DNA of 64,000 nucleotides, taken from assembly GCA_016285515.1 (NCBI GenBank), contig JAEEQW010000001.1, forward strand, positions 248,001-312,000. The letters are read 5' to 3'. The translations under genes and the position numbers were made by a program. Below are positions 16,016 through 49,977 of this stretch, piece after piece. The notes under the pieces were generated by a model, which was not told the DNA's origin, searched no databases, and saw only the letters and a list, made by a program, of their open reading frames with translations. Origin of the DNA: Bacteroidales bacterium. Its GTDB lineage: Bacteria > Bacteroidota > Bacteroidia > Bacteroidales > BM520. Within the stretch, counting starts at the first letter, position 1. Every line of letters starts with the position of its first letter.

Positions 16016-18118
16016 ATGTCGGAGAGACTCCAAAATCTTAGAAATATCGGCATTATGGCCCATATCGATGCAGGTAAAACTACAACGACAGAGCGTATAT
16101 TGTATTATACCGGCGTTAACTACCGTATCGGCGAAGTCCATGAGGGTACTGCAACCATGGACTGGATGCCTCAGGAACAGGAACGCGGAATCACTATAAC
16201 CTCAGCCGCAACCACCATTTATTGGAACAGAAACAACGAGAAGTATAAGATTAACATTATCGATACTCCAGGCCATGTTGACTTCACCGTTGAAGTTGAG
16301 AGGTCTCTCAGAATACTTGACGGTGGAGTGGTCGTTTTCTGCGCAGTGGGCGGTGTCCAGCCTCAGTCTGAAACAGTTTGGAGACAAGCCAACAAATATA
16401 GTGTGCCTCGCATCTGCTATGTGAACAAAATGGATCGCAGCGGCGCCGATTTCCTCGGTGTTGTTGAACAGATCCATGACAAGCTTGATGCCACTCCGTT
16501 AGTCCTCCAGCTCCCAATAGGGATGGAAGACTCTTTTGTCGGTATAGTCGATCTGCTTACAGAGACAGGTTATATTTGGGACAGTGAATCTTTGGGCGAG
16601 AAATACAACGCCGTTCCTGTACCCGATGATATGAAGGATGCTGTGGCCACTTACAGAACCAAACTTATCGAGACTGTCGCTGAAAACGATGAGGCCATCC
16701 TCGACAAATATGTTGCCGACCCGTCATCAATTTCTGTGGATGAACTCCGCTCATCCATTCGCAAGGCGGTCCTCGACATGAAGTTGTTTCCTGTCATCTG
16801 TGGCTCATCCTTCAAAGACAAGGCTGTCCAACCTATCCTTGATGCCGTTGTTGACTACCTGCCTTGTCCGCTTGACACCAAACCGATTTACGGAACAGAC
16901 AGAAACAACGAAAAGGTTCCTGTCATTCCGAGTGATGATGCTCCATTCAGCGCTCTCGCATTCAAGATCCAGACTGATCCGTTCGTCGGACGTCTTGTGT
17001 TTTTCAGAGTCTATTCCGGCAAATTCGAAACAGGCTCCCAGTTCCTTAATGTAAATACAGGCAAAAAGGAAAGAATGTCAAAAATAATGCAGATGAATGC
17101 CAACAAACATACCGTCCTTAACGAGGTCTGTGCCGGTGATATAGCGGCTGGCGTCGGATTTAAGGATATCCGTACCGGTGATTCTCTGTGCAACCCAGAC
17201 AAACCTATACTTCTCGAAAACATAACATTTCCTGAGCCTGTTGTCCAAATAGCCGTCGAAGCCAAAAAGCAGGAAGATGTTGAGAAACTTAACATAGCCC
17301 TTGCCAAAATGGCTGAGGAAGATCCGACATTCTCTTACCATTTCAGCAATGAAACGGGCCAGACAATCATCTGCGGTATGGGTGAACTTCACCTTGACAT
17401 CATTCTTGACCGTCTGACGAGAGAGCAGAACGTCGAATGTTCGAAGGGACGTCCTCAGGTTGCTTACAAGGAGGCTCTAACAAAGACCGTGACTTATCAC
17501 GAAATTTATAAGAAACAGACCGGCGGCCGCGGCAAATTCGCTGACATAGAGTTTGAAATCGGTCCTGCCGACGAAGGAGTTACCGGTCTTCAGTTCATCA
17601 ACGACACAAGAGAGGGTGTTATTCCAAAAGAGTATGTGCCATCAATTGAAAAAGGTTTCAAGAGTGCAATGCAGAATGGCATACTTCTTGGTTATCCTAT
17701 ACTCGGCATGAAAGTACGCGTGTTCAACGGCTCCGCTCATCCTGTTGACAGTGATGAACTTGCCTTTGAGACTGCTGCCAACATAGCTTTCCGTGAAGCC
17801 TCCAAGACGGCCGGTCCTGTATTGCTCGAACCGGTTATGAAGGTTGAGGCTGTGGCTCCGGCTGAATATGTGGGAGAAATATCAAGTGACCTGACTCACA
17901 GGAGAGGCCAGGTGCTTACTCTCGATTCCCAGGGCGGTCTTCAGATTGTGGTAGCCGAAGCTCCGCTTGCTGAAATGTTCGGCTATATCAATTCCCTGAG
18001 AAACATCACCTCGGGCAGAGGCACTTTCTCAATGGAGTTTGAGAGATATTCAATCCCTCCAAAGGAAATAATGGATGAGGTGATTTTTAAAACTAAAGGA
18101 TATATAGTTAATTATTAA
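16016..18118 (+). CDS. fusA: Elongation factor G
   Basis: 700 residues, full length. The G domain has [19 protein letters not shown], the DTPGHVDF switch and NKMDRSGAD; domains II-V follow, with domain [18 protein letters not shown] and a C-terminal [11 protein letters not shown]. It moves tRNA and mRNA after peptide transfer and acts in ribosome recycling. Codon use is more GC-rich than in the flanking genes, typical of a highly expressed gene. Confidence 0.98.
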
Positions 18119-18129
18119 ATATTGATAAA

Positions 18130-18435
18130 GTGAACCAAAGGATTAGAATTAAATTAAAATCGTATGATCACAACTTAGTTGACAAGTCAGCTGAGAAGAT
18201 CGTCAAGACAGTGAAGACAACAGGCGCTGTCGTAAGCGGTCCTATCCCATTGCCAACTAACAAGCAGATTTTCACAGTTAACCGTTCCACGTTTGTTAAC
18301 AAGAAATCTCGTGAGCAATTCCAGCTCTCCACATATAAGAGACTGCTGGACATCTACAGTACAACTTCAAAGACCATCGATGCTTTAATGAAGCTCGAGT
18401 TGCCAAGTGGCGTTGAAGTAGAAATCAAAGTTTAA
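18130..18435 (+). CDS. rpsJ: 30S ribosomal protein S10
   Basis: 101 residues, uS10, from a GTG start at 18130 ([18 protein letters not shown]). The [21 protein letters not shown] stretch and the final GVEVEIKV are family-typical. It sits directly after fusA, so the str and S10 clusters are continuous; no separate promoter is seen. Confidence 0.97.
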
Positions 18436-18459
18436 AGAAACAAAAAACATTAGAAGAAA

Positions 18460-19089
18460 ATGTCAGGATTAATTGGAAAGAAACTTGGAATGACAAGTAT
18501 TTACGACGAGAAGGGTAGAAATATTCCGTGTACCGTTCTTGAAGCAGGTCCTTGTTATGTAACCCAAGTTAAGACATTGGAAAAAGATGGTTATGAAGCT
18601 ATTCAGTTAGCTTTCGATGACGCAAAAGAAAAGAATACTCCTAATGCCATGAAGAAGCATTTCGAAAAGGCAGGAGTAACCCCTAAACGCATTGTTCATG
18701 AATTCACCAGATTCGAAGCGGGTTCGAGAAAATCTTATGGTGAAGAACTTCGCGTGGACATCTTCCAGGAAGGCGAATTTGTTGATGTGGTTGGTTACAC
18801 AAAAGGCAAGGGCTTCCAGGGTGTTGTTAAAAGACACGGTTTCAGCGGTGTCGGTGATCAAACCCACGGTCAGCACAATCGTCTGAGAGCACCAGGTAGT
18901 ATCGGCGCAAGTTCATATCCTTCAAGGGTATTCAAGGGTATGAGAATGGCCGGCAGAACTGGCAATCAGAGAGTGAAGATGATTAACCTCCAGATAATGA
19001 AGATCATATTGGAGAAGAATTTAGTATTAGTAAAAGGAGCCGTTCCAGGTTCTAAAGGTTCTTATGTATTTATTGAGAGATGGAGTTAG
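18460..19089 (+). CDS. rplC: 50S ribosomal protein L3
   Basis: 209 residues, uL3. Starts [19 protein letters not shown] and has the central [24 protein letters not shown] loop (the conserved Gln methylated in E. coli lies in GQ). Binds 23S rRNA near the peptidyl-transferase centre. Its 3' end overlaps rplD by 10 bases. Confidence 0.98.
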
Positions 19090-44188: not shown

Positions 44189-44839
44189 ATGCAAAAATTA
44201 ACGAAGGCTATAGCAGCCATAATGCTAATGACAGCGTTGCTTACCGTTGGATGTGCACCTGAAGAATACAAAGACCACGACTACGTTGACCTTGACCTGC
44301 CGAGCGGTACGCTGTGGGCTACCTGCAATGTGGGTGCGAACAAGCCCGAGGATTATGGCGACTACTTTGCGTGGGGTGAGACGCAGCCGAAAGATGTTTA
44401 CAACTGGAGCACCTACCAGTACTATGAAGGCTGGAATATGACCAAATACACTTGGAATGAACGTTTAACCTTCCTGTTACCCGAGGACGATGCTGCCACT
44501 GCCAATTGTGGCAATGGCTGGCGCATGCCTACCGAGGAAGAATGGCATGAACTCTACAGCAACACGACTGTAACATGGACACAGCAGAATGGTGTGAACG
44601 GCAGACTCTTCACTGCGAGCAACGGTAACAGTCTCTTCCTGCCCACTGCTGGCTACCGTTGGGACAGCGGTCTCGACGACGTTGGGTCGAACGGCGGCTA
44701 CTGGTCGAGTTCGCTCTACACAGGCTACCCGTACGACGCGTGGGGCTTCGGCTTCAGTTCGGACGGCTACGGCGTGGGCGTTAGCGTTCGCTACTTCGGT
44801 CGATCTGTCCGCGCCGTGCGTTCCGCGCGTCAGAAGTAA
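44189..44839 (+). CDS. FISUMP-type lipoprotein with a DGR-like variable C-terminus
   Basis: 216 residues; lipoprotein signal (ALLTVGCAPEE). The body is a FISUMP/C-type-lectin-like domain: VDLDLPSGTLWATCNVGANKPEDYG, FAWGETQPKD, NCGNGWRMPTEEEWHEL, FLPTAGYRWD, NGGYWSSSLY, and a final GRSVRAVRSARQK. DNA is GC-richer than the neighbours. In the stretch 44726-44799 codons read like NNC variants around fixed TTC, TCG, TAC and CGC codons, as in retroelement-diversified ligand-binding surfaces. A second copy of the 3' end lies downstream, differing mainly in codon positions 1 and 2. No reverse transcriptase or template repeat is in the window, so a remote DGR would be needed. Surface exposure is inferred. 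Confidence 0.7.
   Translation: MQKLTKAIAAIMLMTALLTVGCAPEEYKDHDYVDLDLPSGTLWATCNVGANKPEDYGDYFAWGETQPKDVYNWSTYQYYEGWNMTKYTWNERLTFLLPEDDAATANCGNGWRMPTEEEWHELYSNTTVTWTQQNGVNGRLFTASNGNSLFLPTAGYRWDSGLDDVGSNGGYWSSSLYTGYPYDAWGFGFSSDGYGVGVSVRYFGRSVRAVRSARQK
44726..44799 (+). other. Candidate DGR variable region
   Basis: Codons such as GGC, TAC, GAC, AGC and GTT fill the positions where a template repeat would have AAC or AAT, between constant TTC, TCG, TAC, CGC codons. Compared with the fragment ending at 45161, 11 of 17 codons differ at base 1, seven at base 2 and four at base 3; in the constant tail just behind, all four differences are at base 3. Confidence 0.6.
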
Positions 44840-44855
44840 GCTTTATTCCGTGAGG

Positions 44856-44883: not shown

Positions 44884-44889
44884 TTGTTC

Positions 44890-44969
44890 GGCTGCCGTAA
44901 TACGACAGCCCTACAAACCAACGGGATTGTTTCACCCCAAGACTGTAGGGCTGTCACATCGTGGCAGCC
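44890..44969. repeat. 80-bp inverted-repeat element
   Basis: GGCTGCC at 44890-44896 and GACAGCCCTACA at about 44904-44915 are answered by TGTAGGGCTGTC at about 44944-44955 and GGCAGCC at 44963-44969. The ends and the inner arms pair, with a loop of about 28 bases. A MITE-like or REP-like element is likely. Confidence 0.6.
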
Positions 44970-45041
44970 GCTGTAGCGAGTCAAAGATAAATAGAACTGG
45001 TGGAAATTAATTACGAAAAATTGACGATTTTTTATTTGCCA

Positions 45042-45161
45042 TTTACATCGGACGACCCGCGCCTCGCGTTCTACTTCGATTCGCACTGCTACCAAATGAT
45101 CGACCACCACCGCCACGTTGGTCGATCCGTCCGAGCAGTGCGTTCTGCGCGTCAGAAGTAA
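45042..45161 (+). pseudogene. Remnant of a second FISUMP variable 3' end
   Basis: The frame DDPRLAFYFDSHCYQMIDHH...VGRSVRAVRSARQK-stop aligns without gaps to the last 40 codons of the lipoprotein gene. The last 14 codons match with silent changes only, while the stretch before has different residues at most surface positions. The similarity continues for about 15 bases past the stop. Upstream of 45042 it is lost; a GTG at 45000 keeps the frame open but gives no signal peptide, so this is a gene fragment, not an intact gene. Confidence 0.65.
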
Positions 45162-45297
45162 GCTTTGTTCCGTTCGCACACAGGCTGAACGGGCAGGGTG
45201 AAATAGTTGGCGGATTATTTTATTGCGGATTGTTGAGCCATTGGAATTTTCAACCATAAATACATACGCACCAGACTAAAAATAATGGCAGAAGTGA

Positions 45298-47558: not shown

Positions 47559-47593
47559 CAATAAATTATTTATCATTATAGGGGCTCTAAAAC
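47559..47593 (-). repeat. Terminal degenerate repeat (R1)
   Basis: Six differences from the other three copies: four within the first five plus-strand bases, which are the 3' end in transcription direction, and one each at positions 19 and 27. Its last plus-strand base completes the stop codon of the cassette 1 gene. Confidence 0.75.
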
Positions 47594-47985
47594 TACATAA
47601 GTGCGATATTCCTGTCATATCTTATTCCTTTGTAGTTTCTTGCACGTAACCAATCCAACATAGTACCTTTCATAGATGTAATGCCCACTTCCAAAAGATT
47701 TGTATTGAGCATATCGGCCAATGAACAGACATAGAGGGCAGTTGCGTTACCATACTCCCCACTGCCAAATTCATATTCACATTCGCTACATCTAATGATA
47801 TCCACTTTTTCTTCATTTTCTTCTCTTAATATAAGTTCCTCATTAGAGTAAGCAGGTTCATACATTTCTTTATAACGCATAGTTTCAAAGAACATTTGTT
47901 CTTCTTTTGATTGGTAATGCCCTTCCATTTGTTTAAAAAGCAGGTCATCTTCTGCGCATAATTCGAATAGTGGTTCTTTCTTCAT
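47593..47985 (-). CDS. Cassette 1 gene, small acidic protein of unknown function
   Basis: 130 residues filling the interval between repeats: the ATG is 17 bases from R2 and the TAG stop uses the last base of R1. The N-terminal half is rich in Glu (MKKEPLFELCAEDDLLFKQM), a CSEC pair at about residue 66 could hold a metal, and the end (MKGTMLDWLRARNYKGIRYD) is basic. I do not recognise the family. There is no signal peptide or transmembrane helix. It runs in the direction of the leader promoter. Its base composition is like its surroundings. Confidence 0.65.
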   Translation of the reverse strand: MKKEPLFELCAEDDLLFKQMEGHYQSKEEQMFFETMRYKEMYEPAYSNEELILREENEEKVDIIRCSECEYEFGSGEYGNATALYVCSLADMLNTNLLEVGITSMKGTMLDWLRARNYKGIRYDRNIALM

Positions 47986-48002
47986 ATTATCGAAATTTAG
48001 CT

Positions 48003-48037
48003 GTTTTAATTATTTATCATAATAGGGGTTCTAAAAC
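48003..48037 (-). repeat. CRISPR-like repeat (R2)
   Basis: Identical to R3 and R4. The minus strand holds TAAATAATTAA near its end, which puts a TAA in all three forward frames. Confidence 0.85.
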
Positions 48038-48062
48038 TCTTAACACTATTAAGAAAATGTAT

Positions 48063-48070
48063 TATATTTG
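48063..48070 (+). promoter_or_regulatory. -7 box inside cassette 2
   Basis: TATATTTG fits TAnnTTTG, 24 bases before the ATG of the small membrane peptide; a weak -33 candidate lies at about 48040. Confidence 0.45.
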
Positions 48071-48094
48071 CAATGAAATTCAAAGGAGAAAAAT

Positions 48095-48211
48095 ATGCTT
48101 ATTGATGTAATTATAGGTATAATTTGGATTATTGGAGTAATTAGAATTATTAAAGATGCCAAAAATGGTTCATTACCTCACCATGGATACGGACCTTGGA
48201 ACATCAATTAA
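48095..48211 (+). CDS. Cassette 2 gene, 38-residue membrane peptide
   Basis: MLIDVIIGIIWIIGVIRII is a single strongly hydrophobic helix, followed by a short polar end DAKNGSLPHHGYGPWNIN. An AAAGGAGA ribosome site stands 6-13 bases before the ATG and a promoter box precedes it, so the unit is a self-contained gene. It runs opposite to the leader promoter. Toxin-like single-helix peptides look similar, but no antitoxin is recognised. Confidence 0.55.
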   Translation: MLIDVIIGIIWIIGVIRIIKDAKNGSLPHHGYGPWNIN

Positions 48212-48269
48212 CTAATAATCCTTTATTGTAGTAGTCCCGACACACTCATATTATTAGACTACCTTTGCC

Positions 48270-48304
48270 GTTTTAATTATTTATCATAATAGGGGTTCTA
48301 AAAC
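48270..48304 (-). repeat. CRISPR-like repeat (R3)
   Basis: Identical to R2 and R4. On the plus strand a TACCTTTG box ends three bases before it (48260-48267), so a transcript could also start inside this repeat toward cas1. Confidence 0.85.
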
Positions 48305-48653
48305 TATTGTAGTCTTCGTCAATCTTTAGAAGGTTGGTGTTGTGCTCAGCAACCATATTCTGGTAAGCCTTAAGCCTGTCACCTTCCAGCTTGCTGACAT
48401 CAGCATTAAACAATCCGGCACTTTTCAGCACATTTTCATATCTTCTGTTTTCAGCATCGACTTCAATCTTCCGGACATTGGTATAGTATTCCTTTTCGAT
48501 GGTTTCAAGCCTCTCAAACTGTTCTTTGGTGAGTTCCTCACGGCTGACATTGTACAGGCCTTCGTATTTCAGACGCTCTTCGTAAATTTCCTTCTCCCGG
48601 TTAATCAGATTCGTGTAGTTGTTAACATACTGTTCGATAACCTTCGGTTTTAA
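48273..48653 (-). pseudogene. Cassette 3, start-less internal coding fragment
   Basis: The minus strand is open for 126 codons across the whole cassette, and stops at both ends lie in the flanking repeats. The frame reads VIEQYVNNYTNLINREKEI...YENVLKSAGLFNADVSKLEGD...LLKIDEDYN, a charged coiled coil, with no ATG or ribosome site near its left end. It looks like an internal piece cut from a larger gene; long coiled coils of this type occur in phage tape-measure and conjugation proteins, but the source is not identified. An antisense open frame at 48342-48653 is taken as a shadow. Confidence 0.6.
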
Positions 48654-48681
48654 TTATTTATCATAATAGGGGTTCTAAAAC
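48647..48681 (-). repeat. Leader-proximal CRISPR-like repeat (R4)
   Basis: Identical to R2 and R3; the one closest to cas1 and to the leader promoter. Confidence 0.85.
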
Positions 48682-48797
48682 CTCTATTGTATAATTTTCT
48701 GATGCAAAGTTAGTTAAAATACTTTTAGTTGAAAAAAAAGAATGTTTTTTTGCAAAAGAAAAATATTTACTTCATTTTTTTGTAACTTAGCAGAAAA
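48682..48797 (-). promoter_or_regulatory. CRISPR leader with promoter toward the array
   Basis: AT-rich stretch between R4 and cas1. On the minus strand TAACTTTG (complement of 48705-48712) fits the -7 consensus, with transcription starting about 17 bases before R4 and running through the array. In the other direction TAACTTAG at about 48783-48790 could serve cas1. Confidence 0.6.
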
Positions 48798-49658
48798 ATG
48801 TCAAAACAAACTTTAGTTATTGAAACGGCAAAGGAATTGTCGTTGAACAATGGAATGATAGTCATAACGGACAAAGAAACGGGCGAGATGAACCTTAGAC
48901 CGCTTGAAGACGTGCAGATGATAATGATAGACCATCACTCCGCAAGAATGACTACGCCACTGATAACAAAACTGGCAAAAACCAATGTCAGTATAGTATT
49001 CTGCGATGAGACACACATGCCAGCATCAATGACGATGGATTTGGAGTCGAACAGTCTGCAGTCGAAGCGTTTCCAATGTCAGTTGTCGGCAACTGTGCCA
49101 ATGAAGAAACAACTGTGGAAGCAGATTGTAGAGGCGAAAATAATGAACCAGTCTCTACTGCTTGAGAAACTCGAAAAGGGAAAAAAACTGTTAGCCTCAT
49201 ATTATTCTAATGTGAAAAGCGGCGACTCATCTAATAGAGAAGGTGTTGCGGCAAAGGTATATTGGAGAACTCTACTTGGAAAGGACTTTATTAGAGATCG
49301 CTACGGTGAACCTCCGAACTCACTTTTGAACTATGGTTATGCCATACTTCGTTCTATAACGGCAAGATATCTGATGAATGCTGGATTATTGCCCACAGTT
49401 GGAATATTTCATCGCAACTGCTACAATGCCTTTCCGTTGGCTGATGATATGATGGAACCTTACCGACCGTACATTGATGGCAAAGTGATGGAACTTTACA
49501 ATAATGGGCAGACTGAGATATGTCAGAAAACAAAGAAGACCATACTGGACTTGTTTTATTCAGAGATACCAGCAAATGCTATGATGCTTTCTGCATCCAC
49601 GCTTGCAGGGGTATATGATGGAACAGGAAAGATTGTAGTATTTCCTAAATTGTTGTAA
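48798..49658 (+). CDS. cas1: CRISPR-associated integrase Cas1, type II
   Basis: 286 residues. Similar to type II Cas1: IDHHSARMTTPLITKLAKTNVSIVFCDETHMP, the catalytic Glu in SNREGVAAKVYW, RYGEPPNSLLNYGYAILRSITARYL, the catalytic His in VGIFHRNCYNAF and the acidic residue in LADDMMEPYRP. All active-site residues are in place. Cas1 with Cas2 inserts new DNA at the leader end of an array. It stands next to the leader and reads away from the array; cas2 follows after 4 bases. No cas9, csn2, cas4 or other effector lies in the window. Confidence 0.93.
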   Translation: MSKQTLVIETAKELSLNNGMIVITDKETGEMNLRPLEDVQMIMIDHHSARMTTPLITKLAKTNVSIVFCDETHMPASMTMDLESNSLQSKRFQCQLSATVPMKKQLWKQIVEAKIMNQSLLLEKLEKGKKLLASYYSNVKSGDSSNREGVAAKVYWRTLLGKDFIRDRYGEPPNSLLNYGYAILRSITARYLMNAGLLPTVGIFHRNCYNAFPLADDMMEPYRPYIDGKVMELYNNGQTEICQKTKKTILDLFYSEIPANAMMLSASTLAGVYDGTGKIVVFPKLL

Positions 49659-49662
49659 TACT

Positions 49663-49977
49663 ATGTGGATATATGTTGTTACAAGTTTCACAAGGTACAG
49701 TAAGGTGGGGCGCATGGCACAAAAACAGTTTGAGAAATCCATGCAGAAAGATGGCTTTCACCATTTGCATGCGAACCTGTTTGTAAGATATTGCACCACA
49801 AGCAGCAATGCAACCGTCCACAAAGAGAGGGTGAAAAAACTCATTCCGCCATGCGGTTGCGACATAAGCATAATCATGTCTTCTGACGGTCAGGAGCATA
49901 ACACATACCACAGCCTTAACCGCAAGCGTACGCGGAAATATTCATACGACAAGCCGCAGATGGTGGAGTTTTTCTAA
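49663..49977 (+). CDS. cas2: Cas2-like protein lacking the usual catalytic Asp
   Basis: 104 residues. The N-terminal MW(I/V)xV strand, the KDGF motif, NLFVRYCTTSSNATVHKERVKKLIPPCG and a C-terminal PQMVEFF tail match type II Cas2 (compare the usual MWV..FDLP start, DGF, RHC, NAEVHIKRVK and the ELF end). Where the family has FDLP, this protein has TSFT, so the conserved Asp is Ser. Cas2 nuclease activity is not needed for spacer uptake in E. coli, so a structural role with Cas1 remains possible. Confidence 0.85.
   Translation: MWIYVVTSFTRYSKVGRMAQKQFEKSMQKDGFHHLHANLFVRYCTTSSNATVHKERVKKLIPPCGCDISIIMSSDGQEHNTYHSLNRKRTRKYSYDKPQMVEFF

Follow-up and report, generated by a model that had tools for sequence, protein, structure and literature searches.

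A CRISPR-like array with intervals of gene scale lies beside cas1 and cas2 in the window, the stretch of 64,000 nucleotides of Bacteroidales DNA that was analysed, and the long-interval form is found beside related cas1-cas2 pairs in four genomes of different genera. The locus is probably a stand-alone type II-C adaptation module without Cas9, which would insert long pieces of phage or self DNA next to its leader. CRISPR adaptation is usually seen as tied to spacers of about 30 bp and to an effector by which they are read. The present case appears to be a natural lineage that has kept integration, dropped the effector, and captured gene-length DNA.

The array in the window and its decayed counterparts

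The features of the locus are listed below by window coordinates.

47559..47593, minus strand: degenerate leader-distal (trailer) repeat, with 6/35 mismatches to the other copies
47594..48002, minus strand: interval 1 (409 bp), with a frame open from repeat to repeat (135 aa)
48003..48037, minus strand: repeat copy (35 bp), identical to the copies at 48270 and 48647 (35/35)
48038..48269, plus strand: interval 2 (232 bp), with a complete 38-aa membrane-peptide gene (48095-48211) and a TAnnTTTG promoter-like element before the gene
48270..48304, minus strand: repeat copy (35 bp), identical
48305..48646, minus strand: interval 3 (342 bp), an internal coding fragment open end to end (113 aa)
48647..48681, minus strand: leader-proximal repeat (35 bp), identical copy
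48682..48797, minus strand: A+T-rich leader, with a TAACTTTG promoter-like element at 48705-48712 reading into the array; this leader is conserved also on C7 and in G002
48798..49658, plus strand: type II cas1 (286 aa), with E148, H205 and E220 intact (Pfam, PADLOC)
49663..49977, plus strand: divergent cas2 (104 aa; Pfam), with the FDLP motif lost

The sequence-only reading had described three identical 35-bp repeats and one degenerate copy, separated by 409, 232 and 342 bp, and these coordinates were reproduced exactly. Its placing of the array next to cas1-cas2 was confirmed, both genes being recognized by Pfam and the best PADLOC match of cas1 being Cas1_II (8e-98). The order of leader, identical repeats, and degenerate trailer repeat was upheld by the copy at 47559 with its 6 mismatches, and these traits of a CRISPR array are all present in the window. 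As to the contents, the 232-bp interval does hold a self-contained peptide gene, complete and preceded by a promoter-like element, and the 342-bp interval is the start-less coding fragment that it was taken for. The 409-bp interval had been regarded as a complete gene; its frame runs open between the two repeats and takes the last base of its stop codon from the start of the repeat, so that the interval may be a fragment. No source of the three intervals, interval 1 included, was found in the same or related genomes, IMG/VR, INPHARED, or PLSDB, and interval 3 had no database match.

A scan of the whole genome (2.58 Mb, 54 contigs) at up to 3 mismatches found the repeat only in the window array and, as a variant, on contig C7. 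Being limited to two loci, the repeat is neither a dispersed element nor a product of chance. A generic repeat dispersed over the genome, which would have told against the sequence-only reading, was thus not seen and is ruled out.

Contig C7 carries four copies of the repeat variant, separated by 246, 176, and 585 bp. The leader is the same as that of the window, and cas1-cas2 has collapsed by an internal deletion. The 585-bp interval contains a whole gene related to CAAX proteases (Pfam Rce1-like), followed by a hairpin that was read by eye as terminator-like, and the 176-bp interval encodes a peptide homologous to the 38-aa peptide of the window. In another species of the same genus (G002), what is left of a locus of the window type is about 27 codons from the start of cas1, together with two repeats at a distance of 368 bp; two further repeats, 279 bp apart, lie on a separate contig.

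The -7 consensus of Bacteroidetes promoters is TAnnTTTG, which the TAACTTTG element of the leader fits. This element is found in the leaders of the window, of C7, of G002, and of the related locus L046, where it is directed into the array and lies about 20-30 bases before the first repeat. The array may therefore be transcribed from this promoter-like element.

Long-interval relatives and the origin of their intervals

The three nearest Cas1 relatives in the genome collection, at loci L046, L045, and L044 (69%, 55%, and 54% identity), all stand beside long-interval arrays, each with its own repeat. The L046 array has 7 intervals of 278-1668 bp, the L045 array (genome G024) has 7 of 412-2350 bp, and the L044 array (genome G395) has 8 of 226-388 bp and then 12 of 198-1167 bp on another contig. 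The repeat differs in each of the four genomes, no cassettes are in common between them, and inspection of open reading frames in the flanks of the four loci indicated that only cas1-cas2 is common beside the array. The short, near-constant spacers of a CRISPR array were not found: all 42 intervals measure 176-2350 bp (median 378, none below 176 bp), compared to a period of 65-78 bp in 64/64 measurable arrays among 77 other Cas1 relatives. The sequence-only reading had proposed to look for ordinary spacers in strains with the same cas1-cas2; the closest relatives lack them and share the long-interval form.

In a tree of 80 Cas1 proteins, the four long-interval Cas1s form one clade with 100/100 support, and this clade is nested inside Cas9-bearing type II-C systems. 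Cas9 homology was detected at 73/77 comparator loci and at none of the long-interval loci themselves. The long-interval family is rare. Only two of 393 Bacteroidales genomes scored above 500 bits for Cas1, the next best reaching 340, and further genome samples yielded at that score level only members already known. Among viral contigs, no Cas1 relatives were found with the window protein as query; an alignment of the clade's Cas1 retrieved four distant relatives (34-44%).

Captured phage and self DNA forms intervals in G395 and G024. Three leader-proximal L044 intervals of G395 are copies of the genome's own chromosomal DNA, from an aminotransferase (98.6%), a peptidase S46 (335/335), and an asparaginase (226/226), and a fourth interval, cut by the contig end, matches contig C43 over its available bases. 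According to their domain coverage, these self-derived intervals of G395 are internal gene fragments. In G024, the 412-bp interval of L045 is identical (412/412) to a site on another contig. The self matches span from repeat edge to repeat edge, except that the aminotransferase match ends two bases before the edge, and no repeat is present at the source sites. These findings imply insertion of a copy of the DNA along with the addition of a repeat, as happens when spacers are acquired. No PAM was evident from four source sites.

Phage DNA was recognized in several further intervals. A 1021-bp interval matches an IMG/VR contig with 98.9% over its first 956 bases, and four others, which come from related phages, span the same phage region; their ends differ and both orientations occur. 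For the newest L044 interval, the match falls within a gene of 401 aa on a viral contig. The 2350-bp interval of L045 and the intervals of L196 had no phage or other match in INPHARED. Relative to the leader, the captured genes of three arrays face either way. The repeats farthest from the leader are degenerate, implying that the array grows at the leader end. The earlier proposal that Cas1-Cas2 takes up long DNA thus gains support from three other genomes, from end-to-end self copies, and from near-exact phage DNA between repeats.

All five intervals from the one phage region contain an intact, diverged allele of a single phage accessory gene of 133-139 aa (the 'MKRLFLIL' gene), which has a signal-peptide-like start and its own TATATTTGC promoter-like element. 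These intervals sit in the old part of one array, and the probability that 5/5 would be intact by chance, with uniform ends, is roughly 6e-4. The recurrent pieces in L046 (3/7 intervals) and L045 (2/7) are mostly gene ends, not whole genes; considering both observations, selective retention and a capture hotspot are each still compatible with the data. The oldest L045 interval (17095-18968) encodes an intact 448-aa AAA_14/DUF4143 ATPase that matches the PADLOC candidate defence family PDC-S01 (E 2e-171). Additionally, two more families of related sequence recur within one array, the first at L196 381-848, 3702-3899, and 5806-6014, and the second at L044 12452-12715 and L196 90-346 and 3934-4387; one of them shares about 120 bp at 98-100%.

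Cas1, Cas2, and the control of spacer length

The catalytic residues E148, H205, and E220 of Cas1 are kept in all four genomes, and only two columns of the protein are specific to the clade compared to near relatives. For Cas2, identity between the clade and the Cas9-type proteins is 28.9%, against 61.0% among the Cas9-type proteins themselves; the same comparison for Cas1 gives 44.5% and 51.7%. In the FDLP motif of Cas2, Asp is present in 53/53 relatives and is replaced by S/S/N/S in the four long-interval members. The predicted fold is still that of Cas2 (pLDDT 81; TM approximately 0.66-0.68 to type II-A Cas2). AlphaFold modelled Cas1 poorly from an alignment of four rows (pLDDT 54), and no result rests on that model. 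Synonymous sites of cas1 and cas2 are saturated while nonsynonymous change is low, which indicates purifying selection on both genes.

The Cas9 profile TIGR01865 found no match in the window genome (G000) or in G002, G024, G395, and G396, these being incomplete assemblies and the profile lacking a known-Cas9 Bacteroidales control. The genome's HNH_4 protein was ruled out as Cas9, since it is a protein of 352 aa. No convincing anti-repeat was found within 9 kb of the array, the rest of the genome having been scanned at up to 3 mismatches only.

In type II-A systems, Cas1-Cas2 alone integrates unprocessed substrates in vitro, prespacers are cut down to about 30 bp in vitro by a supercomplex of Cas9 and the integrase, and the nuclease activity of Cas9 is dispensable for spacer length in cells (PMC8034620). 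In the Cas1-Cas2/DEDDh complex, the integrase itself is the ruler against which prespacers are trimmed (PMC10284694). Two Treponema loci (L123 and L064) contain cas1-cas2 and a 66-bp-period array with no Cas9 in the stretch examined, although Cas9 may be encoded elsewhere in the genome; their spacers are ordinary and their Cas2 motif is normal. Taken with the dispensable type II-A nuclease, these loci suggest that loss of Cas9 alone may not explain the interval length, and the pairing of ordinary spacers with a normal Cas2 motif points to Cas2. Loss of Cas9 combined with the change in Cas2 is the likeliest reason for the missing ruler.

Proposed mechanism, alternatives, and known systems

The module would have descended from a type II-C CRISPR-Cas system after the loss of Cas9. 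Cas1-Cas2, in its presumed inserting role, would place fragments of approximately 0.2-2.4 kb from phage or from the cell's own chromosome next to the leader, joining them unprocessed to the leader repeat. Every insertion would duplicate the 35-bp repeat, and the array would therefore grow in CRISPR manner with gene-scale spacers. The limit of about 30 bp may have disappeared because Cas9-dependent trimming was lost and Cas2 was changed.

Any benefit to the cell would perhaps come from captured phage genes. It is conceivable, and proposed tentatively, that useless captures are lost while phage genes giving resistance are kept and expressed from their own promoter or that of the leader. More tentative still is the idea of a heritable gene bank, in which a CRISPR-derived integrase would store and express phage genes, so that immunity would be acquired by gene capture and not by RNA guides. 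Against this idea, the pieces that recur in L046 and L045 are ends of genes, and many of the intervals are simple fragments.

Capture of long DNA could also bring no benefit at all, the locus being a runaway or selfish CRISPR remnant that, with no effector to punish self capture, goes on adding unprocessed fragments. Several captures are internal pieces of the cell's own housekeeping genes and look useless, decayed copies exist on C7 and in G002, and the family is rare and patchy, as would be expected of such a remnant. Nevertheless, this explanation is considered rather unlikely, given the purifying selection on both genes, the Cas1 catalytic residues intact in all four genomes, the conserved leader promoter element, and the phage gene of which one array holds five intact alleles in its old part.

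An action of the intervals as RNA is improbable. Long transcripts started at the leader would then act on phage genes as silencing antisense or guide RNA, the effector being encoded at another site, and the promoter-like element reading into the array and the phage origin of many intervals would agree with this. However, the genomes tested yielded no Cas9 and the vicinity of the array no anti-repeat, captured genes occur in both orientations relative to the leader in three arrays, and self-derived intervals would silence the cell's own genes.

The sequence-only reading had compared the locus to an integron with an array of gene cassettes. As a general rule this did not stand, since domain coverage and the exact self copies rule out complete gene cassettes as the usual content, the sources lack the repeat, and the repeats fold weakly (-2.1 to 0 kcal/mol) with no attC-like folding. 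The part that survives is that some intervals carry whole phage or candidate defence genes, and an integron-like benefit is possible. A true integron analogue, in which pre-formed cassettes with the repeat as recombination site are exchanged between cells, would account for the complete genes in some intervals (the CAAX-protease-like gene of C7, the phage accessory gene, and the candidate defence ATPase). It is very improbable, because the repeat is missing from the sources, the captured pieces begin or end within genes, attC-like folding is lacking, and every genome has its own repeat with no cassettes in common. Least credible of all is an artefact of assembly, or the decay of an ordinary array whose short spacers received insertions: the key genomes are all assembled in fragments, three relatives being MAGs and the G395 array being split over contigs, but the same architecture appears in four genomes with different repeats and contents, 0/42 intervals are under 176 bp, and self copies are bounded exactly by repeats.

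The preferred reading, a Cas9-less type II-C adaptation module, can be compared to several known systems. With the cas9-cas1-cas2-array modules of type II-C in Bacteroidales it shares the nested position of its Cas1, the catalytic residues, repeats of about 35 bp, growth at the leader end, and degenerate trailer repeats; it differs in that no Cas9 or anti-repeat was found, Cas2 lacks FDLP, and the spacers are 176-2350 bp instead of about 30. Type II-A Cas1-Cas2 without Cas9 likewise integrates unprocessed, longer DNA in vitro (PMC8034620), whereas here this would be the natural state of a lineage and the DNA is far longer. The Cas1-Cas2/DEDDh trimmer-integrase (PMC10284694) is also an altered adaptation integrase, but length control appears absent in the present family. 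The likeness to integrons is partial, consisting of gene-scale captured DNA arrayed beside an integrase with a promoter reading in; the integrase, however, is Cas1-Cas2, no tyrosine integrase IntI was read among the open reading frames of the flanking genes, and the captured pieces are mostly not gene cassettes. In casposons a Cas1-type integrase also acts on long DNA (PMC6977970), yet a casposon encloses Cas1 and PolB in a unit with terminal inverted repeats, whereas here the array does not include cas1, and what has been captured consists of mutually unrelated pieces that differ at their ends and come from elsewhere.

In content, size, and lack of an effector taken together, the array matches no known kind. 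The sequence-only reading knew of no described system of this form, and none was found in the literature searched, from which preprints and most subscription papers were excluded; the portions of the 2025 CRISPR classification reached by a term search contain no such arrays (PMC12669027). On a conservative reading, the locus could be a variant of the CRISPR adaptation module. The family makes the control of spacer length, by Cas9 trimming, Cas2 geometry, or both, directly testable against close relatives, and hints at how a CRISPR module could turn into a gene-capture system. It might also become a tool by which long DNA is inserted at a defined site.

Other observations were made in the same genomes. 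In the genome of the window, ordinary CRISPR arrays lie near their own distant cas1 homologues: one at L012 5345-7472 (G000:C40) has 29 repeats spaced at about 73 bp, and the other, at L013 13-245 (G000:C52), has 4 copies spaced at about 66 bp and is located where the contig ends. Two decayed arrays have toxin-antitoxin-like genes at their trailer end, namely HicB and likely HicA for C7 (L011 4900-5525), and AbiEi and likely AbiEii for G002 (L126 10349-12006). The decayed G002 interval L126 9856-10223, perhaps another self capture, contains short palindromic elements (GAGACGCGAT..ATCGCGTCTC and CTGTCGTAGCACGGCAGCCG) similar to repeat elements of chromosomes, and one type of these also occurs in the window at 44889-44970. 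In the window, a 63-bp stretch that takes in the end of a 216-aa open reading frame (44789-44851) is repeated 322 bp downstream (45111-45173; 87%) as a short remnant.
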